This document shows, piece by piece, positions 4,696-40,255 of a stretch of DNA of 64,000 bases. Position numbers and translations under genes: made by a program. The DNA is taken from positions 248,001 through 312,000 of the forward strand of contig NZ_SDHW01000004.1 in assembly GCF_004118265.1 (NCBI RefSeq). Reading direction: 5' to 3'. The stretch comes from Lacibacter luteus (GTDB taxonomy: Bacteria > Bacteroidota > Bacteroidia > Chitinophagales > Chitinophagaceae). Within the stretch, counting starts at the first letter, position 1; every line of letters starts with the position of its first letter. Below the pieces are notes generated by a model. The model searched no databases. It saw only the letters and a list, made by a program, of their open reading frames with translations, and had not been told where the DNA came from.

Positions 4696-5382
4696 ATGGA
4701 GCCCAAAGGAAAAAAAATTCTCATTGCCGACGACGAACCGGATATTCTCGAAATACTGGAATATAATCTCACCGTAGAAGGTTTTACCGTTATTAAGGCA
4801 AAAGATGGCGATGAAGCAATTCATTTAGCCAAACAACAGCAACCCGATTTAATTATTCTGGATGTAATGATGCCCCGTAAAACAGGCATGGAAGTTTGCC
4901 AGATCCTGCGTTCGCAGGCAGAGTTTGCAAATACACTCATCATTATACTTACTGCATTAAACGACGAAGCCAGTCATCTGAAAGGTTTTGAAATGGGTGC
5001 AGATGATTATGTAAGCAAACCCATCAGTCCTAAGGTACTCATAAGCCGTGTTAACGCCCTGTTCCGCCGCAGTTTCCGCAGCGATGATGCCATTATTAAG
5101 ATCGGTGATCTGCAGATAGATAAAGAACAGTTTTTGGTGAAGTATCATGGACAGGACATTATTCTTGCGAAAAAAGAATTTGAACTGTTAGCATTGCTGG
5201 CATCAAAGCCGGGTCGTGTGTTTCTGCGTCACGAAATTTTAAACCAGGTTTGGGGTGCCGATGTTATTGTGGGCGATCGTACCATTGATGTACACATCCG
5301 CAAGATCCGCCAGAAACTCAACATCGATTGTATTACCACCGTTAAAGGTGTGGGTTATAAATTTGAACTTGGCACAACCTAA
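4696..5382 (+). CDS. PhoB/OmpR-family response regulator
   Basis: A 228-residue two-domain regulator. The receiver domain (residues 6-120) has the acidic pocket D12/D13, phospho-acceptor D56 in LIILDVMMP, T86 in ILTALND and K108 in YVSKPI. An OmpR-type winged helix fills residues about 130-226, with the GRVFLRHEIL and RTIDVHIRKIRQKL segments of the recognition region. The sensor kinase follows after 39 bp. Length and motifs fit PhoB, PhoP and similar regulators. The surrounding phosphate genes and the 11-bp TTAAC repeats at 11068, 12558, 32828 and 39190 suggest that it is the phosphate-starvation regulator, but that assignment rests on context. Confidence 0.9.
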   Translation: MEPKGKKILIADDEPDILEILEYNLTVEGFTVIKAKDGDEAIHLAKQQQPDLIILDVMMPRKTGMEVCQILRSQAEFANTLIIILTALNDEASHLKGFEMGADDYVSKPISPKVLISRVNALFRRSFRSDDAIIKIGDLQIDKEQFLVKYHGQDIILAKKEFELLALLASKPGRVFLRHEILNQVWGADVIVGDRTIDVHIRKIRQKLNIDCITTVKGVGYKFELGTT

Positions 5383-5421
5383 GCTTGTAAATTTGTTTGT
5401 GCCTGCATAAGTACAAACAAC

Positions 5422-6480
5422 ATGATCAATTCCCGACAGCTTACCCCCGTTCAGCTTTCTGCATTTACAGCCTTTACCATTTCGTTATTGGTGGGCCTGG
5501 CAAACTATTTCTTTATCCGCAGCTGGTGGATAGCCTTGCTGAGTTTTGCGGTGCTGTTCCTCATCAGCTACTTGTTGATCCGTTATTTTACCGAACGTTT
5601 TATTTACCGGCATATTAAACTCATCTACAAATTCATTTCGCAAACCAAAGCCACCAAACGGGAAGAGTTTTATACCAAATCGCTGTTACCCGAAAAAAGT
5701 TTGCAGGAAGTAAGCGCCGAAGTGGAAGCATGGGCCGAACAGAAGCGTGAAGAAATTGAATTACTGAAACAGAACGAGCAATACCGCAAAGAGTTTCTGC
5801 AAAACCTGAGTCATGAATTAAAGACACCCATTTTTGCGGTGCAAGGTTACGTTGATACGTTGCTGAGTGGCGCTATGCAAAAAGAAGAGATTGCAAAAAA
5901 ATTCCTGCTCAATACCTCCCGCAATATCGACCGACTGGTAAACCTTGTTGATGACCTTGATGAAATTTCGAAGCTGGAAAGCGGGCAACAACAACTGTAC
6001 AAACAAAATTTCATTATACAGGAATTGGTGCAGGATGTGTACGAAAGCCTTTCATTAAAAGCTGCTGAGAAAAACATTAAGTGTTCGATTAAAAAAAACA
6101 GCGATCTGCCGATTACTGTTTATGCAGATAAAGAAAAGATACGCATGGTATTGATCAACCTTGTAAGCAATGCCATTAAATACGGCAAACAAAATGGCAC
6201 AATTGTTTTTAGTGTATACAAAACACATGGCAACCTGGTGCTTGCAGAAATAAGTGATGATGGTTATGGTATAGCTGAAGAGCACCTCACCCGTATTTTC
6301 GAACGATTTTACCGTACCGATATAGCCCGCAGCCGCAAAGAAGGTGGCAGCGGTTTAGGTCTTTCTATTTGTAAACACATTATTGAAGCTCACGGACAAA
6401 CCATGCATGTACGCAGCAGGATTGATGTGGGCAGCACCTTTGGTTTTACATTAGAAGGCAGAAAAGACAACGCTGCATAA
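5422..6480 (+). CDS. Membrane sensor histidine kinase (PhoR-like)
   Basis: A 352-residue kinase. Two membrane helices (about residues 14-32 and 35-53) are joined by a very short loop, so there is no real periplasmic sensor domain. A linker helix follows, then HisKA with H131 in the motif SHELKTPIF. The HATPase domain has the N box INLVSNAIKYG, G1 DDGYGI and G2 GSGLGLSICK. It is co-transcribed with the regulator at 4696. E. coli PhoR likewise lacks a large periplasmic domain and senses phosphate through its transporter and PhoU, which would suit the DUF47/PiT genes nearby. The kinase assignment is firm; the PhoR role is inferred. Confidence 0.9.
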   Translation: MINSRQLTPVQLSAFTAFTISLLVGLANYFFIRSWWIALLSFAVLFLISYLLIRYFTERFIYRHIKLIYKFISQTKATKREEFYTKSLLPEKSLQEVSAEVEAWAEQKREEIELLKQNEQYRKEFLQNLSHELKTPIFAVQGYVDTLLSGAMQKEEIAKKFLLNTSRNIDRLVNLVDDLDEISKLESGQQQLYKQNFIIQELVQDVYESLSLKAAEKNIKCSIKKNSDLPITVYADKEKIRMVLINLVSNAIKYGKQNGTIVFSVYKTHGNLVLAEISDDGYGIAEEHLTRIFERFYRTDIARSRKEGGSGLGLSICKHIIEAHGQTMHVRSRIDVGSTFGFTLEGRKDNAA

Positions 6481-6501
6481 GCCTTCTTTCCTCCGCTTAA
6501 A

Positions 6502-6532
6502 TAAAAAGACCGCTCTGAAGAATCGGAGCGGT
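6502..6532 (-). terminator. Minus-sense hairpin with U-tract
   Basis: ACCGCTC (6509-6515) pairs with GAGCGGT (6526-6532). On the minus strand the stem is followed by TCTTTTT. It lies beyond the terminator at 6757-6782, so it is either a backup or the end of a separate short transcript. Confidence 0.6.
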
Positions 6533-6671
6533 GAAGTTCCCAGTCAAGTAATGAGAAAATGAACCCTTGATTGCTATAAGACTTTATTGATCTTATCGAT
6601 TGCAATACAAATGTGCTACGCCTGTTTTACCGGAAGATTATTATAGTATGTAGGAATTGTTATTTCGGAAG

Positions 6672-6752
6672 AAGCTGTAAGCTATCAGCCAATCGCCTCA
6701 AACCGATTCATATCTCACAAACTTCTTCTGTCTTGCTTGCAGCTAACAGCTT
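6672..6752. repeat. Inverted repeat AAGCTGTnAGCT
   Basis: AAGCTGTAAGCTA at 6672-6684 is nearly the reverse complement of AGCTAACAGCTT at 6741-6752, with about 56 bases between. It resembles a dispersed REP-like intergenic repeat. No function is assigned. Confidence 0.4.
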
Positions 6753-6756
6753 AAAT

Positions 6757-6782
6757 AAAAAGCCCCCTGAGAACAGGAGGCT
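6757..6782 (-). terminator. Terminator of the lipoprotein gene
   Basis: AGCCCCCT (6761-6768) pairs with AGGAGGCT (6775-6782). On the minus strand it is followed by TTTTTATTTAAG. It sits 58 bp after the stop of the gene at 6840-8216. Confidence 0.7.
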
Positions 6783-6839
6783 GAATAGAGGATACTTGCT
6801 TAAGGAAATCCTTCTTTACTCTTTCGAGTAAGTATTTTA

Positions 6840-8216
6840 TTAGTATACGTTTGTTTGAGGTGTAAAGCTTGCCCAACCCTGCGCCCAGTTTGTTGTACCA
6901 AATGCACCAACAAATGTTCCTGCAGTATTGAAGTAAGCACTCATACCACTGAAGTTTGCACCGGTTAAAGCAGGTGAACCAACTTTTGGTAAGAAATTAG
7001 GAGCACTAAAGTTAAACGGATCGGTTAACTGTGCTGCGTTTCTGTCTGCAAGTAATGTATTGCCTTGACCAAGAACTGCAGTTTGAAAATCAGCATTTGC
7101 AAGTAAGGTTTGGTTATTAGTAGTAAATGCAATTGCAGGAGCTCCTACCGGATAAGCATTGTAAGAAAACACGAGGTTGTTTCTGAAAATGCTTGTACCG
7201 CTTTTATAATCGTTGATCGTATTATCGCTTTCGAGAACAATAGCATTACCTTTTGAACCAAGAATGATTGAGTTACGGAATTCAAAACGGGCAGAACGGC
7301 GCCATCTGTTACCATAACGGTGACGTGAACCATTTGTACCTGTACCAGTTGTATCGTATGGTCCGATGAGTGTAAAGTTGCTGAGGATAGGACGTGTTAC
7401 AGGAGTAGCAGTTGTACCCGATGCATCGTTATCGCACTCAATCTGGTTTGCATCATCATCATCAGAATATTTATCACGCAATGATACTGCATACTGGATC
7501 TGACCATTGTAACCAAAGTCAAAATCAAAATCATCATCACCGCTTGCAAAAGAAATAAGATTCTTAGCGTTTACTGTACCACCAAAGAATTCGAAACCAT
7601 CATCACCACAAAAAGAAGTCTGTACATTTTCAATAATTGTACCTGCACCAACACCGTATAAAGTAAGACCATTCAATTCGCTGTTGTTTTCTGCAGTAAT
7701 ACCTGCAAACTCAATACGCACATAACGGAGAATACCACTGTTGTCGCCGGCATCTGTACCACCGTAAGGACGGTTACTACCACCTTCCGTAATAGGTGCA
7801 GGGGTTAACGGGCGGTTTGTAGGCGCATAACCACAGATTGAAATACCACCCCAATCAAATTCACGACGTGAACCTGCAGCTTTATCACTTGTAAATACAA
7901 TCGGCGCATCAGCTTTACCATCTGCAACCAGCTTACCACCTTGTTCAATAATCAACGCTGTTTTTACAGAGGCATCTGCAAGTACTACCGAACCTGCTGC
8001 GATCTCCAGTGTTGCACCTTTACCTACATATACAAAACCAGACAATTTATATCTTCCTTTAGGCAACGAAAGACTGCGATCGATTCTACCTGTTAATGTA
8101 GAAGGAATAACAGTTGTATCTGTATTACCCGAACCGCCAACAGTTTCGTTAAAGTCAACCTTAATACAAGCGGTAAATGTTAAGGCTGTAATTGCTGCAA
8201 CTAATAGCTTTTTCAT
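6840..8216 (-). CDS. Surface lipoprotein with predicted parallel beta-helix
   Basis: A 458-residue protein with a lipoprotein signal ending at C17 (LTFTAC). The rest is rich in G, N, D and T, with short repeating strands as in right-handed beta-helix proteins (for example GATLEIAAGSVV, GGKLVADGKADAPIVFTSD, GWGGISICG-like turns) and two very acidic stretches (SGDDDFDFDF, YSDDDDANQIECDND) that could bind calcium or cations. It begins 28 bp after the TonB receptor gene and is probably its lipoprotein partner, much as SusD partners SusC, although it is not a SusD homologue. The shared promoter at 11050-11128 carries Pho-box-like repeats, so a role in phosphate or phosphorylated-ligand capture is inferred. 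I know no experimentally defined function for this family. Confidence 0.75.
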   Translation of the reverse strand: MKKLLVAAITALTFTACIKVDFNETVGGSGNTDTTVIPSTLTGRIDRSLSLPKGRYKLSGFVYVGKGATLEIAAGSVVLADASVKTALIIEQGGKLVADGKADAPIVFTSDKAAGSRREFDWGGISICGYAPTNRPLTPAPITEGGSNRPYGGTDAGDNSGILRYVRIEFAGITAENNSELNGLTLYGVGAGTIIENVQTSFCGDDGFEFFGGTVNAKNLISFASGDDDFDFDFGYNGQIQYAVSLRDKYSDDDDANQIECDNDASGTTATPVTRPILSNFTLIGPYDTTGTGTNGSRHRYGNRWRRSARFEFRNSIILGSKGNAIVLESDNTINDYKSGTSIFRNNLVFSYNAYPVGAPAIAFTTNNQTLLANADFQTAVLGQGNTLLADRNAAQLTDPFNFSAPNFLPKVGSPALTGANFSGMSAYFNTAGTFVGAFGTTNWAQGWASFTPQTNVY

Positions 8217-8244
8217 ACTATGTTTCTTTGTGAATTTTTAGTTT

Positions 8245-11031
8245 TTATTTAGTCAAATCGTAAGTAAATCCAATTGTAAATGTTGTACCCGGTGTATAGC
8301 TGTTCCACAAACGATCGGTACCACGGGTAAACTTGTTATTGGTATCAATATTTTCGTAGAAATAGAATGGCTGGTTAAAAATGTCCGATACTGTAAAACG
8401 CAACTCACCTTTATTCTTTAATACTTTGGTTGAAATCTGGAAGTCAACTAAATCTCTTGGACGTTCGTAAATATCATAGATCAACTGATCTTTACCACCA
8501 GCCAATGCAAGACGCTGACCAATTCTGTTGTAGAGTAAGGAAGCGTTTACTTTTCCTTTCTTATCGTTAAACTGTAACCCAACGTTAACGAGGTAAGGCG
8601 ACTGGCCCTGTAACGGACGATCGAACGATTGAGCCTGGCCGTTTGCACCAACACCCGATAACTGAACAGCAGAAGAAAGAACTGTTACGTTTGTGAAGAT
8701 GTTAAACACATCGAGTTTGGGAGCAATAAAACCTAAACCTTTACGCACCTCAACCTCAAAACCATAAGTTTGTGCTTCACCTGCATTCTGGAACTGGTAA
8801 CGGCGTACGCTACCTGCAGCCAATGCTCTTAATTCAATAGGATCGGCAAAGTGTTTATAGAAAACCGCAACAGAAATACCTTCACTTGCTTTCGGATACC
8901 ATTCGTAACGCAAATCCGCATTCCAGATATCGCTTCTGCGTAAAGTAGTATCACCACTTACAGCATAGTTCTGTTCGTAATCGTAGAAAGAGAACGGAGC
9001 AATTTCACGAAATTCAGGACGGGCAACGGTACGGTAACCTGCCAAACGTAACTGATGCTTATCTTTTATGCTATAGCTTAAATTAAGTGAAGGAAGAACA
9101 TCCCATTTGCTGGTATTAACAATAACACGTTTTAAATCGGAACGTACTGTTGTTAAAAACTGTTGGAAATTTTCAACACGTGCTCCCCATACCAAACGAA
9201 GTTTATCGGAAAACTTATTATCGAACATTGCATAACCGTTGTTGATAATGCTTACACCAAAATATTTGTCTTCGTTTTGTGTTTCATCCGCATAAACAAA
9301 CTGTCCGTTGCCGATATACTGTTGCTTAAACACCTCGTTGAAAGGGAGCGTAAGTAAGTTGCTGTTTGTATTATCATCCAAACGGTAACGGAAGTTTCTC
9401 GATTGGAAATCACGGATGCGGATAAGCGTACCACCTCCCGCTTTAAACGTTTGCTTTTCGCCGGCCATTGTAAAAGGCACAGTTAATGCACCACCACCAC
9501 CGTACGAAAAATCTTTAAGGCTGCTGAAGAAACGGCCCGTTTCATCGGTAACCAATGTAAACGGATTATTCGTTCCTGTACTGCGCAAATAAGAAACCGT
9601 ACGCAGATCGGGTTGCGATTTAATATTGTAAGAGAAGTTACCGTTCAACTTCAACTTAATACCTGATTTTGATAATTGCTGTTCTGCTTCAAGTTGAGAA
9701 GAAAGCAATGAACGTTGGTTGAGATAGCTGCTGCGGAAGTTAATATCCTGACCATCTAACAGGTTCTTACCATTTCTTACATAATAGTTATCGTCGTACA
9801 ATTGATTGTAGAGATTTTTGAACGCCACTTTCAGTTTGCGGCTGGTAAACGCAACGTTTGCAACAGCACCAACACTTGTTGAAAAACGGTTCTGGTGATC
9901 GGTATAACTACGCTCAACAGTTCCAACAAAGTCGTTGATGTTTCTGTTTACATCATAAATATTTTGTGCGTTACGGTAAGTAAGTCCGGCAATAAACCCG
10001 AATGAGTTTCCATTATTGAACTTATAGCCTTTACCGTAAGTAAGATTATAGCTTTGAATTGGCGCAGCAGTTATTTTACGTTCGTTATATACATCCGAAC
10101 GGAAAAGTTTCGATTGCTCGCCCTTAGCATCAGCACCAAGTTTTGCATATTGGTTACGGGAAAGAAAGCCGTCGGGTAAATTTCTGCGGCCACCATCAAA
10201 ACCAAACCAATCGCTTGTTTCACGTTGGTTGGTTACAAAGTCTTTAAATGTTGATTGTGAGTTGTAACCAAGATTTACACCAACTGAAAGAATATCTTTT
10301 GTAGGAACATCTTTCGTTTGAATCTGCACCAACCCACCTGCAAACTCACCGGTTAAATCGGGTGTTGCCGTTTTGTTGATGATGATATTATCGATAAGTT
10401 GAGAAGGGATTACATCGAAAGAAAATGCTTTCTTATCAGGTTCAGAAGATGGCAACTGTGCACCATTGATGAGCGCCTGGTTGTAACGATCGCTCAAACC
10501 ACGAACAATTACAAACTTGTTATCCTGGATAGAAGCACCGCTTACACGCTTCAATACTTCACCGGTGTTCTTATCGGGAGTACGTCGGATGAAATCGGCA
10601 GAAAGACCACTTGATAACGATGTATTGTTTCGTTGAAAACTTAATAAGCCCGATGTATTTTCTTTACGTGCTGTAGAACGGATAACAATCTCTGTACCTT
10701 CTTTTGCTGCAACATTGAGTAAAATGGTAATTACGTTTTCGTCAATGTTATTCTTTACTTCAACCTCATCAACCATTTTGGTCTGGTAACCAACAGCAGT
10801 AACAGTAAGTGTGTATTTTTTCCCCTGTTCAAGACTAACTGTAAAACGTCCTTCAATATCAGCAGCAAAAGATTTGCCCAATTCGTTAACCGAAACCGAT
10901 GCACCTGCAACAGGTTCATTTTTCTGATTAAGAACACGGCCGTTTAATTTGGTTGTTTGTGCCGATGTGGAGAAGGCAAAAAGAACAAGTGTAAAAAGGG
11001 TAAGCAGTGATCCTTTAAATTTCCTAAGCAT
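8245..11031 (-). CDS. TonB-dependent receptor, phosphate-block
   Basis: A 928-residue outer-membrane receptor. The start at 11031 gives the signal peptide MLRKFKGSLLTLFTLVLFAFSTSAQ; an ATG seven codons upstream is also in frame. A CarboxypepD_reg-like domain spans about residues 26-110 (LNGRVLNQKNEPVAGASVSV), the plug about 130-250 (SGASIQDNKFVIVRGLSDRY, LVQIQTKD), and the rest is beta-barrel ending FTIGFTYDLTK, with the usual aromatic strands. It imports a ligand across the outer membrane using the proton-motive force through TonB. It leads an operon with the beta-helix lipoprotein. Six 11-bp-spaced TTAAC-like hexamers lie just upstream of its -7 box, so phosphate limitation probably controls it. 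The substrate is not evident from sequence. Confidence 0.9.
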   Translation of the reverse strand: MLRKFKGSLLTLFTLVLFAFSTSAQTTKLNGRVLNQKNEPVAGASVSVNELGKSFAADIEGRFTVSLEQGKKYTLTVTAVGYQTKMVDEVEVKNNIDENVITILLNVAAKEGTEIVIRSTARKENTSGLLSFQRNNTSLSSGLSADFIRRTPDKNTGEVLKRVSGASIQDNKFVIVRGLSDRYNQALINGAQLPSSEPDKKAFSFDVIPSQLIDNIIINKTATPDLTGEFAGGLVQIQTKDVPTKDILSVGVNLGYNSQSTFKDFVTNQRETSDWFGFDGGRRNLPDGFLSRNQYAKLGADAKGEQSKLFRSDVYNERKITAAPIQSYNLTYGKGYKFNNGNSFGFIAGLTYRNAQNIYDVNRNINDFVGTVERSYTDHQNRFSTSVGAVANVAFTSRKLKVAFKNLYNQLYDDNYYVRNGKNLLDGQDINFRSSYLNQRSLLSSQLEAEQQLSKSGIKLKLNGNFSYNIKSQPDLRTVSYLRSTGTNNPFTLVTDETGRFFSSLKDFSYGGGGALTVPFTMAGEKQTFKAGGGTLIRIRDFQSRNFRYRLDDNTNSNLLTLPFNEVFKQQYIGNGQFVYADETQNEDKYFGVSIINNGYAMFDNKFSDKLRLVWGARVENFQQFLTTVRSDLKRVIVNTSKWDVLPSLNLSYSIKDKHQLRLAGYRTVARPEFREIAPFSFYDYEQNYAVSGDTTLRRSDIWNADLRYEWYPKASEGISVAVFYKHFADPIELRALAAGSVRRYQFQNAGEAQTYGFEVEVRKGLGFIAPKLDVFNIFTNVTVLSSAVQLSGVGANGQAQSFDRPLQGQSPYLVNVGLQFNDKKGKVNASLLYNRIGQRLALAGGKDQLIYDIYERPRDLVDFQISTKVLKNKGELRFTVSDIFNQPFYFYENIDTNNKFTRGTDRLWNSYTPGTTFTIGFTYDLTK

Positions 11032-11049
11032 AGTATCAATTTGATGCGG

Positions 11050-11057
11050 CAAAGGAA
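11050..11057 (-). promoter_or_regulatory. -7 element of the TonB receptor/lipoprotein operon
   Basis: Minus strand TTCCTTTG, seven of eight matches to TAnnTTTG, about 18 bp before the start codon. The first Pho-box hexamer starts 10 bp further upstream. That is the spacing at which PhoB-type activators normally replace the upstream promoter element. Confidence 0.55.
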
Positions 11058-11067
11058 CTCCTGCAAT

Positions 11068-11128
11068 GTTATGCCAACGTAAACCCCGTGTTAAGGAACT
11101 ATTACCTGCATATTAAGCCAATGTTAAC
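11068..11128 (-). promoter_or_regulatory. Pho-box-like array, six hexamers at 11-bp spacing
   Basis: Hexamers start at 11068, 11079, 11090, 11101, 11112 and 11123. Read on the minus strand toward the gene they are GTTAAC, CTTAAT, GGTAAT, CTTAAC, GTTTAC, CATAAC, each separated by 5 bp. Direct repeats with an 11-bp period are the signature of PhoB-family binding, and CTTAAC is also the core of the cyanobacterial Pho box. Spacing and sequence are seen directly; binding is inferred. Confidence 0.75.
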
Positions 11129-11136
11129 TGCATGTA

Positions 11137-11174
11137 TAAAAAGCGGCCTGCATCATAGTAGATGCAGGCCGCTT
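11137..11174 (-). terminator. Porin terminator
   Basis: A perfect 14-bp stem, AAGCGGCCTGCATC (11141-11154) with GATGCAGGCCGCTT (11161-11174), followed on the minus strand by TTTTTATAC. It separates the porin gene from the Pho-box promoter of the TonB receptor. Confidence 0.85.
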
Positions 11175-11200
11175 CGTACCTCTGTATTTCTTCTGATAAT

Positions 11201-12508
11201 TTAAAAACGGAACTGCAGGCGACAGGTTAGTACATTATCTTTTATATCGCTCGTATAACCGGTTAACGCTGTTTTTTCATTCTTTACCATTGCATAATAC
11301 AATACCAGTTTTACATTTTCGGTGAGGTAATTAATATAGCCTATGCCCAATGTGTTGTATTGAATATTAGCAGCGGTTAGCGATTTACCGGATGCTCCAA
11401 TTTGAGTTCCTTTCACTTTTGTATTCGGATCATACCATTCATACTTTACAATAAGCTGGTGTTGGGTGCTAAAAAGGTGTTGCAGAAAATAAACATTACC
11501 ACCTCTGAAATTTCGTACATGAAACCCTTCAATACCGGTAAGTAATGCATTGGGAGTTTCGCTACTCGTAGATGTACCTGTTTGCACGCCACCGATATAT
11601 TCGCCACGCAGTTCAGTAAAGCCTTTCCTGTTTTTAAGTTTTAGCTGCAGGTCGGCACCATAATATTTTCGGGGCGATACCGTACCGATATTAGCCACCG
11701 CAGAATCCACTAACAATTTGGTTACCCCGCCACTTTGCCCGGTTGAATATTTATACTTTGTGTTTTGCAGCAATCCGCCGTAGAGTAACGAAGCGCCTGC
11801 CGAAACAGCTAGTTTTTTTGTTACCGGGTAAGGTTTAAGTGCCACACGGCCAATAACGTCTTTGCTGTTATCAAAATCGCCTGTTGCGTTGATGCCCTGT
11901 CCGTTAAACATACCTGCATCCATTTTCAGATAACGCATTTTTGCATCTTTTTTCCGTGGTTCAAATGTAATCATCGCACCAAGGTCTCGCTCACTCTTCA
12001 TGAGTGTTTGATTCATACGTGTACGTTCCGGCGATTCCCTGTCGCTGCTGCTGAGGTTTGTTTCGTAACCAAAAGGACGGGCAAACATACCGGTTGTAAA
12101 GGCAAAGGTTTGCAGTTTGTTTTCAAACACCCTTCCCCATACATCACGTATGGTAAACCCTCTTTCGTTTACATCAAACTGAAAAGCAATTTGTACCCCT
12201 GCTTTGGCTTCTTTTCCAAAATGTACATAATCTATCCGCACACGGCTGCGGCGCAGCATAAAACGATTACTTACGTTTGTGCCAAAATCAGGACCTTCAA
12301 AAGTTTTAATTCCTTTGCTCTCAGCCACCTGAAATTGCGGTTGGATGTAGCCGCTTAAACGCAAATGGTCGAATTTTTTGTAAATACCCAGCATGCCCTT
12401 ACCGGCATCTTTCGTAGTATCGATCATATCCATCAGAAACTGGGCCTTTGCGGCAATGGGCAAAGTACATAACAGGAGCAGAAAAGCCCTGTACATTGGT
12501 TTAGTCAT
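11201..12508 (-). CDS. OprO/OprP-family phosphate-selective porin
   Basis: A 435-residue outer-membrane porin with signal peptide MTKPMYRAFLLLLCTLPIAAKA. The mature N-terminus has a short helix region and then strands beginning HLRLSGYIQPQFQV and RFMLRRSRVRIDY, the characteristic opening of the phosphate-selective porin O and P family. The motif GMFARPFGYE with the following SSSDRESPER fits the family's loop 3 region, and the protein ends in a C-terminal aromatic strand (TCRLQFRF). OprO/P trimers let phosphate or polyphosphate cross the outer membrane; Bacteroidota homologues vary in selectivity. It is divergent from the DUF47-PiT phosphate transporter, and its promoter has an 11-bp repeat array, which supports a phosphate role. 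Confidence 0.88.
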   Translation of the reverse strand: MTKPMYRAFLLLLCTLPIAAKAQFLMDMIDTTKDAGKGMLGIYKKFDHLRLSGYIQPQFQVAESKGIKTFEGPDFGTNVSNRFMLRRSRVRIDYVHFGKEAKAGVQIAFQFDVNERGFTIRDVWGRVFENKLQTFAFTTGMFARPFGYETNLSSSDRESPERTRMNQTLMKSERDLGAMITFEPRKKDAKMRYLKMDAGMFNGQGINATGDFDNSKDVIGRVALKPYPVTKKLAVSAGASLLYGGLLQNTKYKYSTGQSGGVTKLLVDSAVANIGTVSPRKYYGADLQLKLKNRKGFTELRGEYIGGVQTGTSTSSETPNALLTGIEGFHVRNFRGGNVYFLQHLFSTQHQLIVKYEWYDPNTKVKGTQIGASGKSLTAANIQYNTLGIGYINYLTENVKLVLYYAMVKNEKTALTGYTSDIKDNVLTCRLQFRF

Positions 12509-12528: not shown

Positions 12529-12536
12529 CAAAGGTA
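12529..12536 (-). promoter_or_regulatory. -7 element of the porin gene
   Basis: Minus strand TACCTTTG, a full match to TAnnTTTG, about 21 bp before the ATG. The nearest strong Pho hexamer starts 21 bp upstream, in the same 11-bp phase as at the TonB receptor promoter. Confidence 0.6.
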
Positions 12537-12557
12537 TAAAGCCGACATTTTTACCAT

Positions 12558-12596
12558 GTTAAGCTATCGTTACCCCTGTGTTAAGAAATCATTAAC
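12558..12596 (-). promoter_or_regulatory. Pho-box-like array, four hexamers at 11-bp spacing, between porin and DUF47-PiT
   Basis: Hexamers start at 12558, 12569, 12580 and 12591: on the plus strand GTTAAG, GTTACC, GTTAAG, ATTAAC. Toward the porin they read GTTAAT, CTTAAC, GGTAAC, CTTAAC, the same orientation relative to the gene as at 11068. The array is 35 bp from the plus-strand -7 element of the DUF47 gene, so control in both directions is possible but closer to the porin. Confidence 0.72.
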
Positions 12597-15168: not shown

Positions 15169-15209
15169 CTGACAGGTAGTTGCATCTTTGCGGCTCAATT
15201 AATGAACAT

Positions 15210-27821: not shown

Positions 27822-27846
27822 GTCGTTGCTGTTAATGTTGAATTTT

Positions 27847-29499: not shown

Positions 29500-29519
29500 T
29501 TTTTAATTCTTTAATGATT

Positions 29520-32809: not shown

Positions 32810-32817
32810 CAAATGTG
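32810..32817 (-). promoter_or_regulatory. -7 element of susC copy 1
   Basis: Minus strand CACATTTG (TAnnTTTG with T to C at the first base), 26 bp before the start codon. The Pho-like array starts exactly 10 bp upstream, as at 11050-11068. Confidence 0.5.
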
Positions 32818-32827
32818 CCGGTTCAGT

Positions 32828-32888
32828 ATTACCGATTTCTTAATGAACTGTTATGGAAAGATTACCGAACTGTGATGGAATTGTTTCG
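32828..32888 (-). promoter_or_regulatory. Pho-box-like array upstream of susC copy 1
   Basis: Hexamers start at 32828, 32839, 32850, 32861, 32872 and 32883. Toward the gene they read CGAAAC, CATCAC, GGTAAT, CATAAC, ATTAAG, GGTAAT, all with 5-bp spacers. GGTAAT and CATAAC also occur in the array at 11068-11128. The two distal units are weak; the four proximal ones are convincing. Confidence 0.68.
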
Positions 32889-33482: not shown

Positions 33483-35168
33483 TTAATAACCCGGATTCTG
33501 AACTAAATAGCCCGGAATATTTGAAGCACCATTAATTGCATTGATTGGTATCGGGAATAATCGTTTGTTTTTATCGGTATTCGATTTCTCTGTCCATGTA
33601 CCTTCATATTTTCCAAAGCGTATCATATCCGTACGACGCTGGTGTTCCCAATATAATTCAAAACCTCTTTCACGGAAAAGAATATCGAGTGACATTGAAG
33701 CCAATGGCGGAGCAACTATTCTTGCTGTTCTTGCAGCTCGTATAATGTTTACATCTGCAAGTGCGCCAGCCGCATCATTACTTTTTCTGAGTTTTGCTTC
33801 TGCACGCATCAGGTAAACATCAGCAAGACGAAGAATAACGATATCATGCTCGCCACGATTTCTTCCATCGGTTGTGGCGCTGCTGAATTCATATTTCTCA
33901 ACCCTGTAACCAGTGAAATAATCACTACCTGCTACCGTAAAATTGATTGTTTCAGTAAAATCAACAGGAAGAGTTGGTTTACCACGTGTAACATGATAAA
34001 GCTTACCAATTTTATATCGGCCGGTACCGCATGTGGTAAAAGGAATATTTCTTCCACCGATCAATCCGTACTGTTGTCCTCTCAACACACCACGATCAAT
34101 TTTAAAATCTGTACCAAGAATGCAAGAGTCTGCAGGTATAACCAGATTCTTTTTGTAGAAACGGGGATCAGCAGCTGCAGGATCTGTAGCTCCATAAGCA
34201 CTCACCCAGCTTTGATAAAAATCAGGCGTGATCGCAGGACCATCGGTTCCATTCGCATTCGGTACTGATGGTAAAGGAAACTGATCGCCCGATAAAGAAA
34301 AATAAGCCATACGATTATGACCATTCAGATCCTGGCGTTGATCAATTGCAAAGATCAATTCCTTGTTGTTATGATTGTTATTATCGAAAATGGAAAAATA
34401 CTCAGCAGCTAATTGAAACTGGTTTGAAGAAATGATCTTATCCGTGTACTCCATTACTTTATCCATGTCATCAGGTCTGAAAGTAAAAGTAGCTGCATAA
34501 CGATCACGCCATACTGCAGCATTCAAATGCAATTTTGCAAGCAAGCCCCACACACCTGCTTTCGTCATTCTTCCGGGTCCTGTTGTGTTATCAAGCAAAG
34601 GCTCAACAGCAAGCAATTCCGATTTAATGTAATTGATTGCATCATCGCCACGTAATATCACAGATGTTGCATCAGGATTTTCTTTTTTAAAAGATATTCC
34701 GAAAAGATCAAGAGCCAGCATATTATAATAGGCCCTCATTCCTCTTGCTTCAGCTAAAAATGTTTTAGCATTTACAAAATTATTGGTTGATAATGCACTG
34801 ATGGCTGTTACACTTCTCGAAATACTTTGTACAATTTGATTCCATGTGTTGTTGACATTGGGATCAGAACTCAACGTTTCATGCCGGTGAAGTGAAAGGT
34901 AAATGCCGTTATCACCCCAATCGGTACCACCTCTGTAAGGAAGAATGGCTTCATCTGTAGAAATTTCCTGCAATGAAAACAGGTTGGTGTGTTGAAACAA
35001 TGTTGGCAGAAGCGCATATACAGGTGCTATGTTCCCTTCGGCAACCTGCTGTTCTGTAAGTCCCGTAGCAGAAGATTCATCGAGTACCTTCTCTTTTAGC
35101 TTTGTACAGCCATGAATAAGAGAGGTGCCGGTGAAGAGTAACAGGAGATAAACTATTTTCTTTTTCAT
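33483..35168 (-). CDS. SusD/RagB-family surface lipoprotein, copy 2
   Basis: 561 residues from the start at 35168 (MKKKIVYLLLLF), chosen because it opens a lipoprotein signal with lipobox LIHGC (C21); an ATG 13 codons upstream would bury it. It has classic SusD features: SVTAISALS-type helices, EARGMRAYYNMLALDLFG, EILFAIDQR-like central strands and the C-terminal ADVYLMRAEAKLR, LDILFRERGFELYWEHQRRTDMIRFG and KRLFPIPINAIN. It follows SusC copy 2 by 53 bp from the chosen start (the upstream ATG would leave 14 bp). It belongs to the canonical SusD family (RagB), unlike copy 1, so the two SusCD pairs have different ancestry. Confidence 0.92.
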   Translation of the reverse strand: MKKKIVYLLLLFTGTSLIHGCTKLKEKVLDESSATGLTEQQVAEGNIAPVYALLPTLFQHTNLFSLQEISTDEAILPYRGGTDWGDNGIYLSLHRHETLSSDPNVNNTWNQIVQSISRSVTAISALSTNNFVNAKTFLAEARGMRAYYNMLALDLFGISFKKENPDATSVILRGDDAINYIKSELLAVEPLLDNTTGPGRMTKAGVWGLLAKLHLNAAVWRDRYAATFTFRPDDMDKVMEYTDKIISSNQFQLAAEYFSIFDNNNHNNKELIFAIDQRQDLNGHNRMAYFSLSGDQFPLPSVPNANGTDGPAITPDFYQSWVSAYGATDPAAADPRFYKKNLVIPADSCILGTDFKIDRGVLRGQQYGLIGGRNIPFTTCGTGRYKIGKLYHVTRGKPTLPVDFTETINFTVAGSDYFTGYRVEKYEFSSATTDGRNRGEHDIVILRLADVYLMRAEAKLRKSNDAAGALADVNIIRAARTARIVAPPLASMSLDILFRERGFELYWEHQRRTDMIRFGKYEGTWTEKSNTDKNKRLFPIPINAINGASNIPGYLVQNPGY

Positions 35169-35221
35169 TTGAATATTTTTAATGTTTTCGTCAAAGTGAA
35201 ATTTCATTTCGCACTTGTCAT

Positions 35222-38203
35222 TTAAAATGAAAGATTCAATCCAAAAATGAATGACTTAGCTTTTGGGTAACTTAAATAATCAATACCATAGGAAATAACA
35301 CCTCCGGAATTTCTGTCAGTATTTACTTCCGGATCATAACCATTGTAATCTGTTATCACAAACAGGTTTTGACCTGTTACATATACACGCAGATTAGATA
35401 CCCATTTACTTACACCAAGTTTTGACGTATTGACGTTGTAACCAAGTGACATGTTATTCATCCGCAGGAAAGCACCATTCTTAAGATAACGTGTACTAAT
35501 TGGTGCAGCATTGCTGGATGATTCATTCGCTGCAGCAACAGCTTCAGCCGTAACATTCCCACTTCTCGAAAGATTTACCTTGGTGAAAGTTGAATTAGCA
35601 GTGAGATCATAAACTTTATTTCCTGATACGCCATTCATATTGAAATTAAAATCAAACCCTTTAACGTTTACACCACCATAAAAGCTATAAATAATATTCG
35701 GCAATGCGGTACCTGCTGCAATGCGGTCATTATCTGTATAAGTGCTTCCGTTTTTATCTTTATCGAAATAAACACTTTGGCCGTTAGCTCCTATTCCATC
35801 CCATCTGTTCAAATAGAACGTACCAATGGGTTCTCCATTAATATAACCATTCAGTGGTGATGAGGTTAAACCGGCTCCTGCAGCTAAACCCGTAGTAATA
35901 ACTGTGTAAGGCGAGTTTTCAACTTTGTTTTTTATGAACGTAACATTACCACCAACATTATAGCTAACGTTTTTTCCGCTGTGTCTGTAGTCCAATTCTA
36001 ATTCAACACCCTGGTTGATGATGTTCATATCTTCAACGTTTGTCCATACTGTACTTGCCGGTACAATCGGATCGGCAGGTGGCACTGCCAGCAAAATGTT
36101 ATTGGTTACTTTTCTGAAATAATCGATGGTGCCTGATAAACCTGCGTTCCTCAAACTAAAATCCAAACCAACATCAATTTGTGTTGATGTTTCCCATTGA
36201 AGATTGGGATTGGCAAGTCTTACATAAATAGTACCTGCAGGATAAGTTCCCGATGGATACAAAGGATAGCTTTGATTACCGGCAGTGGAAGATGTAAACA
36301 ACGGTTGAGTTTGCTTCTCAGGTAATTCCTGGTTACCTGTTATACCCCAACCTGCTCTCAATTTCAAATTTGAGAAAATTGAATTCCGCATGAAGTCTTC
36401 TTCAGTTATTTTCCATCCTAAAGAAAACGATGGGAAGTATCCATACTTATTATTCTCTCCGAATTTTGTAGATCCATCTGCACGAAAATTAACTGTTGCC
36501 AGATACTTGCTGTTATATTGATAGGTTAATCTTCCAAAGAAAGATTGCAATTCATTAATAACAGCAAAACCGCCGGGGCGATTCGTTGCAAGATCCAATA
36601 GCTGACCTGTTCCGGGATTGTATTGTGGCTCTACCCCACCTGCAGTAAACCTGTTGATACTATAATTTCTTCCCTGTAAGAAAATTCGTTGGTAGGAATG
36701 ACCTGCTAATGCAGATACATTGTGCGGATTCTTCACCCAGTTATAAGTAAGATAATTTTCAATCAACCTGTTGCGGTTGTAATTGTAAAATGTTTCCAAT
36801 CTGCCTTCACGGAAAGGCGTTACACTTGGCTTTGATTGAATATCGTTTGTACCATTTGAATTATCGATACCGAAATTGAGTTTATAAACTAATCCTTTTA
36901 CGATCGTTAAGGAAGGAGAAATACTTCCGATGACACGATTGATGGTACTCATTTCGCCTTCACCGTCGATTGAGAATAACGGGTTGTTTACACCAGCTAC
37001 AAATACAGGATTTCCGTTTGCATCACGTGCAGGATAAGTTGGATTGTTGCTGATGGCCTGGCCGAGTATAGCAGAAAAGAAAGGCCGGTCATTTTTTGTT
37101 TGGTTAACTGCAAGGTTTACATCTATTACCAATCTGTCGTTCCAGAATTTTTGTGATGCATTGAATCTGCCGGAATACCTGTTTAGGTTATTTTTTTTAA
37201 TGATACCTTCTTGCTTTTGCATTCCGAATGAACCAAAGTAAGTCAGCTTTTCAGCTCCACCGCTTAATGATAAATTATAATCCTGTGTTATACCTGTTCT
37301 GAAAATTTCATCCTGCCAATCGGTAGAAGCACCTTTGTCATCAATTGTTGCACCCGTTTTTGGAACTTCGCTGCGGAATTCTGCAGCAGTAAATACCGGC
37401 AGCTTTCTTGCAATTTTAGAAATACCCAGGCTCGATGAAAAACTTAATTGAGATGCACCTGCCTTACCCTTCTTAGTAGTAATAATCACAACACCGTTTG
37501 CACCTCTTGAACCATAAATTGCAGTGGCTGATGCATCTTTCAATACATCCATTGATTCAATATCCTGTGGGTTCAAAAAATTCAATGGATCGCCACGACC
37601 GGTTAAGTTATTATCAAGTGGAATTCCATCCACCACAAACAAAGGCGTGTTACTGGTACGCACACCTCCCGGTCCACGAATGGTGATGCCTTGTTGAACA
37701 CCTGGCTCACCACTTACAGAAGTAACATTCACGCCTGAAACCTTTCCTTGCAAAAGTTGTTGTGGAGATGTGATGATACCTTTGTTAAATGATTCAGCTT
37801 TTAATGATTTTACTGCACCTGTAACATCTTTCTTTCTTTGCGTACCGTAACCCACTACCACCACATCTGTTAATGCAACAGAGGATGATGTAAGTACCAC
37901 ATCATAAGAAGAAGATGCTGTTATTTTTACTTCCGCAGTTTCAAACGAAACGGCACTGAGCACAAGTACATCGCCTGTTTTCGCAGAAATTTTGAATGAT
38001 CCATCTTCGGCGGTTATTGTTGAAGCATTGCCTCCTTTAATAACAACAGATACTGAAGTGACCGCAGCACCTTTTGCATCTTTTACTGTTCCTGCAATTT
38101 GTCTTTGCTGTGCCTGCACAACAATTGACAACATAGAAAAGAAAAAGATGAGGAATACGGGCAACGCACCAAAGAACAATGATCGTTGGTTAAATCTTCG
38201 CAT
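35222..38203 (-). CDS. SusC/RagA-family TonB-linked outer-membrane transporter, copy 2
   Basis: 993 residues from MRRFNQRSLF at 38203; an ATG ten codons upstream is also in frame. It has a signal peptide ending VVQAQ, a CarboxypepD_reg-like domain (IAGTVKDAKGAAVTSVSVVI), the SusC signature LTDVVVVGYGTQRKKDVTGAV, the plug with LLQGKVSGVNVTS, PLFVVDGIPLDNN and SMDVLKDASATAIYGSRGANGVVIITTKKG, then the barrel. It is co-transcribed between the inositol oxygenase and SusD copy 2. Expected to import an inositol-containing or otherwise phosphorylated ligand if the array at 39190 is a true Pho box, but the substrate is not shown by sequence. Confidence 0.92.
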   Translation of the reverse strand: MRRFNQRSLFFGALPVFLIFFFSMLSIVVQAQQRQIAGTVKDAKGAAVTSVSVVIKGGNASTITAEDGSFKISAKTGDVLVLSAVSFETAEVKITASSSYDVVLTSSSVALTDVVVVGYGTQRKKDVTGAVKSLKAESFNKGIITSPQQLLQGKVSGVNVTSVSGEPGVQQGITIRGPGGVRTSNTPLFVVDGIPLDNNLTGRGDPLNFLNPQDIESMDVLKDASATAIYGSRGANGVVIITTKKGKAGASQLSFSSSLGISKIARKLPVFTAAEFRSEVPKTGATIDDKGASTDWQDEIFRTGITQDYNLSLSGGAEKLTYFGSFGMQKQEGIIKKNNLNRYSGRFNASQKFWNDRLVIDVNLAVNQTKNDRPFFSAILGQAISNNPTYPARDANGNPVFVAGVNNPLFSIDGEGEMSTINRVIGSISPSLTIVKGLVYKLNFGIDNSNGTNDIQSKPSVTPFREGRLETFYNYNRNRLIENYLTYNWVKNPHNVSALAGHSYQRIFLQGRNYSINRFTAGGVEPQYNPGTGQLLDLATNRPGGFAVINELQSFFGRLTYQYNSKYLATVNFRADGSTKFGENNKYGYFPSFSLGWKITEEDFMRNSIFSNLKLRAGWGITGNQELPEKQTQPLFTSSTAGNQSYPLYPSGTYPAGTIYVRLANPNLQWETSTQIDVGLDFSLRNAGLSGTIDYFRKVTNNILLAVPPADPIVPASTVWTNVEDMNIINQGVELELDYRHSGKNVSYNVGGNVTFIKNKVENSPYTVITTGLAAGAGLTSSPLNGYINGEPIGTFYLNRWDGIGANGQSVYFDKDKNGSTYTDNDRIAAGTALPNIIYSFYGGVNVKGFDFNFNMNGVSGNKVYDLTANSTFTKVNLSRSGNVTAEAVAAANESSSNAAPISTRYLKNGAFLRMNNMSLGYNVNTSKLGVSKWVSNLRVYVTGQNLFVITDYNGYDPEVNTDRNSGGVISYGIDYLSYPKAKSFIFGLNLSF

Positions 38204-38259
38204 AGCAATTGGTTTTGAATTTGAGTTATACAATAGTTAATGAGCGCTTTGTTTGCAGG

Positions 38260-39135
38260 TTAAAACCTGAGTGTAGCCGGCAGATATTTTGCAACCAGCT
38301 CTTCATAGTAAGGCTTTAGTTTTTTCCAATCAGGAGGTTCAGGATTTTTTGAATAGAGATCATACGGATTAAACAATTGTACCCACTTCAGCATTTCCCT
38401 GTCGTGGTCGTCTAATAAATGCTCATAAGCACCTTCACGATGCCATGCATAAAATGAATGATAGCGGAGCATATACAATCCTGATTCAGGCAGATTATTC
38501 TTCATCATTTGATATACATACTCATCATGCCCCCACGACATGTGTACATTTCTTAAACCGCACCCTTCACTATACACGCCATATTTAGAGCTGTATGTTT
38601 CGTTGTTAAAATCGGGATTGAGTTTAAAAAATTCGGGATAAACAATTTTATCGGAATAAGCACAACCAACGGGGAATGTATCGCCAACAACAGCCCATTG
38701 TGGTTCGCCAAACAAGCAAAGTACTTTTCCCATATCATGCATTAAGCCCACCAGCACCATCCAATCTGGATGACCATCTCTGCGGATTGCTTCGGATGTT
38801 TGTAACAAATGTTGAAACTGGTCAAGATCAGTATCAGGATCAGAATCATCCACTAATTCATTTAAAAAATTAAATGCTTCCCACACAGGCATTTCTCTTT
38901 TTGAAAAAGAAAGAAACTCCTCTCTTTTTTTCATAACGAAATCGTAAGTCTGGTACTGGTGATTCAACCGGTAGAACTCCTTTACGGTATCTCTTTCAGG
39001 ATTATCGTAGTTCCTGTACTCCTCTGTTGTTTTTGCAGTAGCGATCGAATCAGGATCGGGATAACGACGCAGAAGATCTTCTTCCCATTCGTCGAGGTTT
39101 TTAAGTGGGACAGCTTCAAAGTTGTTTGTATGCAT
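38260..39135 (-). CDS. Inositol oxygenase (MIOX family)
   Basis: A 291-residue protein matching myo-inositol oxygenase throughout: QTYDFV, NELVDDSDPDTD, GLMHDMGK, GDTFPVGC, MSWGHDEYVY, LRYHSFYAWH and FNPYDLYSK. All six diiron ligands are present (H109, H133, D134, H203, H226, D259). MIOX opens myo-inositol with O2 to give D-glucuronate in the cytoplasm. It is the first gene of an operon with SusC/SusD copy 2, behind a Pho-box-like array. MIOX and PhnZ are members of one small HD-domain mixed-valence diiron oxygenase group, and both occur in this locus. No glucuronate catabolic genes are seen here. Confidence 0.92.
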   Translation of the reverse strand: MHTNNFEAVPLKNLDEWEEDLLRRYPDPDSIATAKTTEEYRNYDNPERDTVKEFYRLNHQYQTYDFVMKKREEFLSFSKREMPVWEAFNFLNELVDDSDPDTDLDQFQHLLQTSEAIRRDGHPDWMVLVGLMHDMGKVLCLFGEPQWAVVGDTFPVGCAYSDKIVYPEFFKLNPDFNNETYSSKYGVYSEGCGLRNVHMSWGHDEYVYQMMKNNLPESGLYMLRYHSFYAWHREGAYEHLLDDHDREMLKWVQLFNPYDLYSKNPEPPDWKKLKPYYEELVAKYLPATLRF

Positions 39136-39496
39136 AACATTCTGGTTTACTAAAGTAGGTAACCCGGCGTTGCAGCAATCATCAATAGTAATAAGTAACT
39201 ATTATCATTTTATTACCGCCGTGTTAACAAGGAAAAGAATGCAGGAACACAACAAATTGCAGAAGACAATTTGTAGAGATGTAGAAAAGAGATTCGAACA
39301 TTGTTCAGCAAGCATGTTCTTAAGCAATCGTTGGTGTACCTTACTTACTAAAGTGATAATTTTCAACCACAAATAAAACAGCCACGAACCTTTTATTTAC
39401 GAAATCGTTTTCGGTAAAAATGATGAAGTAACAGATGCTGATCAATGCAAGCGATTGCAAAGATCAGCTTGTATTCTTTTCTTAATTTAGAACACT
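39136..39496. other. Divergent promoter region, inositol oxygenase / PI-PLC-like gene
   Basis: About 360 bp with no coding frame. It holds the 11-bp repeat array at 39190-39228 and a possible minus-strand -7 element TACTTTAG (plus 39150-39157) that is in phase with it (33 bp). No clear promoter was found for the plus-strand gene. Confidence 0.55.
39190..39228 (-). promoter_or_regulatory. Pho-box-like array upstream of the inositol oxygenase operon
   Basis: Hexamers start at 39190, 39201, 39212 and 39223. Toward the inositol oxygenase they read GTTAAC, GGTAAT, GATAAT, CTTATT with 5-bp spacers. The orientation is the same as in the other three arrays. It is 55 bp from the start codon, farther than in the other cases. 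Confidence 0.58.
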
Positions 39497-40255
39497 ATGA
39501 GGCTATTCTTAACAACAGTATTTTTTTGCACAGCACTTCTGTTGAGTGCACAACAACCTTTTAAACATTCGCATAACGATTACGAACAGGCAAACCCATT
39601 CTTTACAGCCTATCAACATCAATTTGAATCAATAGAGGCTGATATATTTTTAAAAGATGGCGAATTGTTTGTGGCACACAATCCGGAAGATATTAAAGCC
39701 AACAGAACATTGAGTAAGTTATACCTGCAACCGATTGCTGATGCGCTTGCAGCAACTAAAGGAAACATTTATAATAACGCTGATAAGAAGCTGCAACTAC
39801 TGATCGATATTAAGACAGAAGCTTACGCAACATTGAATGTATTGATCAGCTTGTTAAAAGACTACTCATCCATCACTGCAAATAAGCGTATCATCCTTAC
39901 AATAAGCGGCAACCGGCCTAAAGAAGAAGATTATACCAATTATCCTGATTACATTTTTTTTGATGGAAGACCCGGCATTCATTACAGCGAAGCCGCTTTA
40001 AAAAAAGTTTCCTTGATTAGCATTGGTTTTAGTTCCTTTTCAAAGTGGGATGGAAAACAATCATTGGCTGCAGATGATGAAAACAAATTGAGTAAAGTGA
40101 TTGCAGAAGCAAAACGACTGAATAAGCCATTCCGTTTTTGGGGATGCCCTGACACAGAACTTGCATGGAAAGAATTTATAAAACTGGGTGTTGATTTTAT
40201 TAATACAGATAAGGTTGAAGCGTTGGCAGCATTTTGTAAAAACTTTCCGAAATAA
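39497..40255 (+). CDS. Secreted PI-PLC/GDPD-like phosphodiesterase
   Basis: A 252-residue protein with signal peptide MRLFLTTVFFCTALLLSAQ. It has the TIM-barrel pattern of the phosphatidylinositol-specific phospholipase C / glycerophosphodiester phosphodiesterase superfamily: catalytic HSHNDY at about residue 24, ESIEADIFLKDGELFVAHN with metal-binding E/D and the second His, then LLIDIKTEA and PFRFWGCPDTELAWKEF, and the final VDFINTDKVE. It most resembles the AIM6-like subgroup. Likely to cleave phosphodiesters of lipid head groups or GPI/PI in the periplasm. It is divergent from the inositol oxygenase operon, which would suit release of an inositol compound, but this is inference. Confidence 0.8.
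   Translation: MRLFLTTVFFCTALLLSAQQPFKHSHNDYEQANPFFTAYQHQFESIEADIFLKDGELFVAHNPEDIKANRTLSKLYLQPIADALAATKGNIYNNADKKLQLLIDIKTEAYATLNVLISLLKDYSSITANKRIILTISGNRPKEEDYTNYPDYIFFDGRPGIHYSEAALKKVSLISIGFSSFSKWDGKQSLAADDENKLSKVIAEAKRLNKPFRFWGCPDTELAWKEFIKLGVDFINTDKVEALAAFCKNFPK

Follow-up and report, generated by a model that had tools for sequence, protein, structure and literature searches.

A conserved SusCD-linked aminophosphonate gene row in Lacibacter luteus, its likely phosphate control and a phase rule for its promoters

How much of a stretch crowded with phosphorus genes belongs to one system, and what would that system take up and cleave? The question is raised by a window of 64,000 nucleotides from the 5.07 Mb genome of Lacibacter luteus (contig NZ_SDHW01000004.1, positions 248,001 to 312,000), in which genes for a SusC/SusD outer-membrane pair (SusCD) stand beside enzymes of aminophosphonate breakdown. 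An earlier note had read positions 4696-40255 of this window as a single phosphate-starvation island. Open reading frame (ORF) calls together with Pfam and NCBIfam scans recovered every gene that it named, each at the place given for it. The 36-kb island itself was rejected because genes for RmlA, GalE and half of a transketolase, which are not phosphorus genes, lie inside the span, and a myo-inositol oxygenase (MIOX) unit stands apart. The span consists of several units, and the conserved one is only 18382-32783. This locus is real and conserved, and most likely it is phosphate-controlled.

The core is one minus-strand gene row of 14.4 kb, which we take to be a single transcript. It holds susC1-susD1, a hydrolase of the alkaline phosphatase (AP) superfamily (here the phosphodiesterase, PDE), a propeller-phosphoesterase, a TonB receptor, a PhnZ-type HD oxygenase, a PhnX-like hydrolase, DUF5690 and a TIGR03364 oxidase dependent on flavin adenine dinucleotide (FAD). 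SusC and SusD beside phosphoesterases or phosphonate enzymes is the arrangement of a phosphate utilisation system (PUS, with PusCD), and it is found here. Gene content, conservation, catalytic residues and promoter phase, all read directly from the DNA, make it probable that the row is an operon under PhoB control whose role is to obtain phosphorus from aminophosphonates.

The earlier note would have given up its reading if the synteny were not conserved in related genomes, and this is answered by the finding that SusCD and the aminophosphonate enzymes form one conserved unit, kept as a gene row among relatives and recurring elsewhere in other orders. The HD oxygenase is present in 105 of 394 family genomes and in 45 of 101 genera. 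We examined 40 oxygenase-centred loci from 33 genera, some of which end at contig ends, with bit floors of 300 for the TonB receptor, 230 for the propeller-phosphoesterase and 200 for PhoB/PhoR. Among these, susC is found in 34 loci, susD in 35, DUF5690 in 38, the FAD gene in 36, the PhnX-like gene in 30 and PDE in 27; a copy on the oxygenase strand is found in 34, 35, 37, 34, 29 and 27 loci, respectively. SusCD, DUF5690 and the FAD gene occur together in 32 loci, and the full set including the PhnX-like gene and PDE in 20. The propeller-phosphoesterase is seen in 13 loci (above 230 bits, some matches being partial), the TonB receptor in 6 and phoRB in 11. Counting only rows of at least 400 bits, a cut of our own choosing, and omitting five low-scoring or fragment oxygenase rows, 61 of 89 SusD1-like genes lie within 15 kb of an oxygenase, all on its strand (own genome included).

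Beyond the family, Algoriphagus, Cyclobacteriaceae, a Spirosoma-labelled metagenome-assembled genome (MAG) and a Mucilaginibacter MAG carry FAD, DUF5690, PhnX-like, PDE and SusCD genes in differing orders and strands, not every rearranged locus having every gene. Thermoflexibacter and three Chitinophaga-labelled MAGs have the oxygenase but none of these genes, save for a TonB receptor match in Thermoflexibacter, and five Pseudomonas loci have the oxygenase with a weak FAD match in four and SusCD in none. DUF5690 was found at E<=1e-30 in 42 of 395 phylum genomes; among 20 DUF5690 loci outside the family the FAD gene is present in 11, a PhnX-like gene in 10 of these 11, and a SusC1/SusD1-like pair in 7.

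Three enzymes of the row, the HD oxygenase, the PhnX-like protein and the PDE, retain catalytic residues of their families. In the HD oxygenase, Y25, E28, H35, H59, D60, H82, H106, K110 and D163 are invariant in 34 sequences; they include the HD ligands, the Tyr/Glu pair (Y25/E28) and the Lys (K110) which we take to be functional in PhnZ. After TIGR03276 its next models are TmpB and PhnZ1, and its best match among PDB sequences is PhnZ (E 1.3e-39). We propose that it cleaves (R)-1-hydroxy-2-aminoethylphosphonate. The PhnX-like protein aligns with 2iof so that D10 (in 31/31 aligned sequences) and K50 (in 30/31) fall on what are presumably the nucleophile and the Schiff-base Lys of the solved phosphonatase. 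The FAD enzyme scores above the curated cut-off of its family, PbfD, and has a PhnX-like neighbour, as expected of that family; by family, its function would be to convert N-methyl-2-aminoethylphosphonate (N-methyl-AEP) or 2-aminoethylphosphonate (AEP) to phosphonoacetaldehyde (PAA). PhnW as the enzyme feeding PhnX was rejected, since no PhnW over the cut-off occurs in the genome (best 41 against 400.8 bits); PhnJ of C-P lyase was not found in the genome either, and the FAD enzyme is therefore the only entry to PAA seen in it.

The PDE has a hydrophobic, signal-peptide-like N-terminus, as judged by eye, and its residues D31, S108, D235, H239, D281, H282 and H295, presumably those of an AP-superfamily active site, are invariant in 27 sequences. 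Searches of PDB sequences with the PDE profile gave no match, nor did the DUF5690 profile at E<=1, and Foldseek was therefore used for both proteins. The AlphaFold2 (AF2) model of PDE (mean predicted local distance difference test, pLDDT, 91.4) has the fold of the AP superfamily; within it Foldseek returned no specific match, LtaS, YejM, sulfatases, PafA, phosphonate monoester hydrolase and nucleotide pyrophosphatases/phosphodiesterases (NPPs) scoring alike. A role as phosphonate-ester hydrolase is proposed for it.

DUF5690 gave an AF2 model (pLDDT 88.8) that is helical and resembles the major facilitator superfamily (MFS). Foldseek ranks the organophosphate carrier G6PT (SLC37A4) first and places it at 6 of the first 9 ranks, at TM-scores of 0.62-0.66. 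In hhalign alignments with E. coli GlpT, UhpT and UhpC, the invariant R38-K39 fall on R45-K46 and the invariant R246 on R269; we take R45 and R269 of GlpT to be its phosphate-binding arginines. On this modelling DUF5690 is proposed to be an inner-membrane aminophosphonate importer. AepP, a proven AEP permease, is likewise a GlpT-related MFS carrier with the phosphate-binding residues kept (PMC8316502, as far as its text was available). The only links between DUF5690 and this family are the fold and a weakly scoring profile alignment. A second DUF5690 copy (1024-2298, minus strand), 54% identical to the operon copy, lies beside a 754-residue protein near phoBR.

What controls the row is suggested by its promoter. 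TAnnTTTG is the -7 element of the Bacteroidota type and was used as such. The arrays upstream escaped Tandem Repeats Finder, probably being too diverged for it, and so a scoring of our own was adopted: five-base units KTAAY at 11-bp steps, four units, with a maximum of 32. In the window, 7 registers in four arrays score at least 29/32, while 20 first-order Markov simulations gave none and a separate 20 gave one match at 30 or more; the 11-bp arrays of the earlier note are thus real. In E. coli the Pho box consists of 11-bp direct repeats next to the promoter core, and the arrays have this layout.

The phase of the arrays was tabulated for 27 gene starts in the first 44.8 kb of the window, a -7 scoring 10/12 or better being required; two of them yielded no entry. 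Five starts have arrays that reach 20/24. Four of these promoters are at phase 9 (mod 11); at the remaining start, that of DUF47, the array is the porin's read in the opposite direction and is out of phase. Where the note counted four promoters with matching arrays, five share the phase, and the fifth, that of phoBR, is the weakest (18/24, with a perfect -7). The starts of PiT, tkt, AraC and sigma also reach 18/24, as the best chance arrays, and AraC and SusD2 are at phase 9 by chance. Among relatives, only 3/9 phoB promoters have an in-phase array; for this reason, and given an array of chance-level strength, autoregulation of phoBR is our weakest claim.

The susC promoters of relatives follow the same rule. 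From the 40 loci 29 were usable (the rest had no SusC1 match, start codon or sufficient upstream sequence), 20 of them showed a clear -7, one that reached 11/12, and in 19 of these 20 the best array is at phase 9. Another ORF script gave 31 susC promoters; 21 of them passed the same -7 threshold, and 20/21 are at phase 9, all 20 with arrays scoring at least 20/24. The promoters of other genes in the same loci, here genes unmatched by the window queries, number 131; 40 of these pass that threshold, of which 5/40 are at phase 9 and 3 have arrays of at least 20/24. In a second set of 80 named loci, 47 have a SusC1-like gene; 3 lacked a start, 2 were too short and 22 were usable, of which 6 were dropped as identical upstream to the first set. 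All 16 remaining are in phase, 15 with strong arrays; they are not independent of each other, because the arrays of L181/L190/L200, of L173/L176 and of L159/L163 are nearly identical. At L074, which has no susC before the oxygenase, the in-phase array precedes the oxygenase gene itself.

Genome-wide, a loose pattern with up to 2 mismatches gave 20 matches against 16 in the reversed control, and another search 12 against 9; since these lie near the control level, only matches with 0-1 mismatches were used. Two one-mismatch matches outside the window, both in phase and on contig C11, precede genes for a choice-of-anchor-I protein (L136 1175-2710, downstream of a weak PhoR match), which is a candidate for a further phosphate-starvation gene, and a CarboxypepD-type TonB-dependent receptor (L137 7308-10475). 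Within the row, a weak array (28/32; 22147-22190, minus strand) overlaps the TonB receptor gene at its end and precedes the oxygenase gene; it is perhaps an internal promoter and perhaps a chance match. As for the phosphate-starvation control that the earlier note proposed, the in-phase arrays speak for it, and the evidence is that of the promoters.

Taken together, these features suggest the following mechanism. SusD1 and SusC1 would bind and import an aminophosphonate or an ester of one, such as a phosphonolipid head group or phosphonoglycan fragment, and the secreted AP-superfamily hydrolase would release the phosphonate in the periplasm. DUF5690, as an MFS carrier like those of the organophosphate antiporter (OPA) family, would move it across the inner membrane. 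In the cytoplasm the PbfD-family oxidase would convert N-methyl-AEP or AEP to PAA, which the PhnX-like enzyme would split into acetaldehyde and phosphate, and the PhnZ-type oxygenase would turn 1-hydroxy-AEP into glycine and phosphate. Transcription would be activated by PhoB bound to the KTAAY direct repeats; lying upstream of the -7, these stop short of it by 9 bp and a whole number of 11-bp turns, and they probably replace the -33 box. More tentatively, and with somewhat less than even confidence, the whole may do for phosphonates what a polysaccharide utilisation locus (PUL) does for glycans, with ester import by SusCD1, a dedicated periplasmic phosphonate-ester hydrolase, DUF5690 as a new family of OPA-like aminophosphonate carriers found across Bacteroidota, and a Bacteroidota Pho box defined by its phase (9 + 11n bp) relative to TAnnTTTG.

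Several observations weigh against this reading. The HD oxygenase is present in only 3/10 genomes of the own genus, and in the 40 loci no match was found to the PhnX-like gene in 10 and to PDE in 13. Of the 89 SusD1-like genes, 18 are in genomes without an oxygenase match and 10 are elsewhere in oxygenase genomes; the SusC and SusD of the Cytophagales loci are distant (~30% identity), 9/20 DUF5690 loci outside the family lack the FAD gene, and 6/11 of the FAD genes found there are distant (28-30%). Both C-P cleavage enzymes fall below the cut-offs of their best NCBIfam models, the oxygenase with 196.5 bits (TIGR03276, cut-off 214.6) and the PhnX-like protein with 192.5 bits (TIGR03351, cut-off 218.9), the latter also with 126.3 bits against TIGR01422 (cut-off 220). 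No dedicated PhnY-type hydroxylase is linked to the oxygenase, the two PhyH genes of the genome being on other contigs; the oxygenase would therefore need hydroxylated substrate from outside, that is, environmental 1-hydroxy-AEP. Other MFS carriers score near G6PT in the Foldseek search with DUF5690, and its hhalign match to GlpT (E 8.5e-4) has a probability of 24%. Lastly, 20/47 named loci have no usable -7, and among 20 loci found through DUF5690, 8 have a SusC1-like gene, none with a usable -7.

In another account, the targets of SusCD, PDE and the propeller-phosphoesterase are common phosphodiesters, of phospholipid head groups or nucleic acid, and the aminophosphonate enzymes have nothing but the promoter in common with them. 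Neither AP-superfamily nor PF04185 enzymes are specific for phosphonates, 28/89 SusD1-like genes do not adjoin an oxygenase, and Flavobacterium PUSI is read as a phosphodiester system in the parts of the report that we could consult (PMC8115612). However, SusC1 and SusD1 stay with DUF5690, the FAD gene and the oxygenase in 32/40 loci, and a SusCD pair stays with the aminophosphonate genes where these are rearranged in other orders. We hold this account to be unlikely. We regard it as decidedly improbable that the arrays bind another OmpR-type regulator and that the genes answer another signal. The assignment to PhoB does rest on gene content and on the resemblance in spacing to the E. coli Pho box, and the few in-phase phoB promoters of relatives would suit another regulator. 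Yet the arrays precede phosphorus genes, namely the porin, the TonB-dependent transporter (TBDT) linked to phoBR and the phosphonate operon, and the two one-mismatch matches outside the window precede the choice-of-anchor-I protein and the CarboxypepD-type receptor; a pf13620 TBDT is listed among the low-phosphate genes of F. johnsoniae in the available text (PMC8115612).

It is more improbable still that the whole 36 kb, including MIOX-SusCD2 and the secreted glycerophosphodiester phosphodiesterase (GDPD), is one system for inositol phosphates or phosphatidylinositol. The in-phase array of MIOX-SusCD2 and the divergent position of GDPD would suit such a system, but SusC2- and SusD2-like genes adjoin MIOX in 13/17 loci as a common locus of its own, and the genome's other MIOX copy has no in-phase array. 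MIOX was seen in 0/40 oxygenase loci (11-20 kb each), with no conserved linkage to the phosphonate operon in the stretches covered, and a beta-propeller phytase (BPP), absent from the genome, was rejected as the enzyme of an inositol-phosphate route.

The aminophosphonate operon favoured here has relatives among known systems. The earlier note held that SusCD next to C-P cleavage had not been described. That novelty of the pairing falls, as PusCD beside phosphonate enzymes is reported in Flavobacterium (PMC8115612), where low-phosphate SusCD genes have, as here, phosphodiesterases along with phosphonate enzymes and transporters of the inner membrane as neighbours; in the sections compared, the phosphonate genes, the transporter and a promoter code are not spelled out. 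According to the same sections, PusD1/2 of F. johnsoniae carry PF07980 and PF14322, whereas SusD1 matches PF12771 best, then PF12741 and weakly PF14322, with no PF07980 match. Achromobacter has hpnW-phnX-phnHD clusters which, in the portion of the paper available (PMC11203657), likewise combine a TIGR03364 flavin oxidase replacing PhnW, a phosphonatase and a TIGR03276 HD oxygenase; they have the ABC transporter phnSTU and a LysR regulator in place of SusCD, PDE, DUF5690 and 11-bp arrays. PbfD1 and PbfD2 oxidise N-methyl-AEP (M1AEP) to PAA, PbfD enzymes also act on AEP, and in that route too a TIGR03364 FAD oxidase feeds a PAA hydrolase; it comes without outer-membrane uptake genes, the main text having no word that starts with Bacteroid- or TonB- (PMC10590968, seen in part). 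PhnZ and TmpB (4mlm, 6npa) align with the HD oxygenase at the HD ligands and further pocket residues, and differ in having a linked PhnY or TmpA hydroxylase. For B. fragilis, PhoB is reported to bind the pstC promoter, and that text has no word beginning 'consensus' (PMC3547664). A literature search covering few subscription journals and no supplements met no Bacteroidota Pho-box consensus, no description of a SusCD-DUF5690-PbfD-PhnX-PhnZ system and no paper naming DUF5690 or PF18943. What is new is the detailed system, the promoter rule and the proposed role of DUF5690.

If the reading is true, it explains aminophosphonate uptake and cleavage in many Chitinophagaceae and other Bacteroidota, and the own genome would manage the cleavage with neither a PhnW over the cut-off nor PhnJ. 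DUF5690 gains a testable function. The phase rule would serve for reading the Bacteroidota phosphate regulon, whose promoters depart from the E. coli form, and for listing further phosphate-starvation genes.

Table 1. Genes and promoter arrays of the window (positions within the 64,000 nucleotides; phase is given mod 11).
Feature	Position	Strand	Remarks
Three-unit array before phoB, spacer 31 to TAATTTTG	4619-4685	+	18/24, weakest of five
phoB-phoR	4696-6480	+	PF00072+PF00486; PF00512+PF02518
Secreted lipoprotein and TBDT	6840-11052	-	PF14905, PF13715, PF07715
Array and -7 TTCCTTTG of TBDT-lipoprotein unit	11050-11138	-	phase 9
OprO/P-type porin	11201-12508	-	PF07396, 21.0 bits against cut-off 20.9, marginal
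Array and -7 TACCTTTG of porin	12529-12595	-	phase 9
DUF47 (PhoU-like)	12656-13306	+	PF01865
PiT phosphate transporter	13406-15115	+	PF01384, 317 bits
RmlA, GalE, transketolase half	15180-18272		non-phosphorus genes
FAD-dependent aminophosphonate oxidase (by family), TIGR03364/PbfD	18382-19509	-	404 bits against cut-off 285
DUF5690, predicted MFS transporter of OPA type	19502-20797	-	PF18943, 494 bits
PhnX-like putative PAA hydrolase (TIGR03351-like)	20794-21480	-	D10, K50
PhnZ-type HD oxygenase (mixed-valence diiron family)	21522-22115	-	PhnZ, E 1.4e-64 by profile
TonB-dependent receptor, optional member	22168-24198	-	6/40 loci at >300 bits
Secreted beta-propeller and phosphoesterase, optional member	24219-26669	-	PF04185
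Secreted AP-superfamily phosphodiesterase (PDE)	26739-27821	-	PF01663; Ser108 likely nucleophile
SusD1 surface lipoprotein	27919-29499	-	PF12771/PF12741
SusC1 TonB-dependent transporter	29520-32783	-	TIGR04056, 462 bits
Phosphonate operon promoter, KTAAY array and -7 CACATTTG	32810-32876	-	phase 9
SusD2	33483-35207	-	follows SusC2
SusC2	35222-38233	-	follows MIOX
MIOX, genome's second copy	38260-39135	-	PF05153, 374 bits
Array and -7 TACTTTAG (or TACTATTG) of MIOX-SusCD2	39150-39227	-	phase 9
Secreted GDPD (GDPD_2)	39497-40255	+	divergent to MIOX row

The inositol branch of the earlier note survives in part, in that MIOX-SusCD2 carries the same promoter code; it is a separate unit, built on the second MIOX copy of the genome. 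MIOX is found in 110/394 family genomes, and the window copy matches the PDB inositol oxygenase at E 2.5e-85. Its nearest copies are in G264 (92%), G347 (92%) and G297 (90%); the array is in phase in G347 (21/24) and at phase 6 in G264 (19/24), and the G297 sequence ends at a contig end. Given the in-phase arrays at the window copy and in G347, this second MIOX-SusCD unit appears to have been recruited into the phosphate regulon, where it may recover inositol from inositol-phosphate substrates. On the side facing the divergent GDPD no array is strong; the best there scores 17/24 and is out of phase. The other MIOX copy (contig C27, L135 8320-19255) is accompanied by LacI, SusCD, a metallophosphoesterase and a sodium:solute symporter (SSF); together they probably form a locus for inositol use that has a SusCD of its own.

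On the other side of the operon, the genes at 4696-12508 (phoBR, lipoprotein, TBDT and porin) form a cluster apart, whose members are also those of PUSIV in F. johnsoniae in the text available (PMC8115612), the lipoprotein being matched by position only. In the non-phosphorus interval, the transketolase is a C-terminal half alone (17313-18272, plus strand; Transket_pyr and Transketolase_C), with no adjoining N-terminal half in the ORF list. The secreted-looking 754-residue protein (2347-4611, minus strand), which adjoins phoB, has no Pfam match. In 8/40 loci of relatives a homologue of it lies near phoRB, and all eight have one on the oxygenase strand. The contig of the window also encodes a PstS-like binding protein (PF12849, 87.8 bits; C23:29988-30749, L292), which lies ~218 kb ahead of the window.

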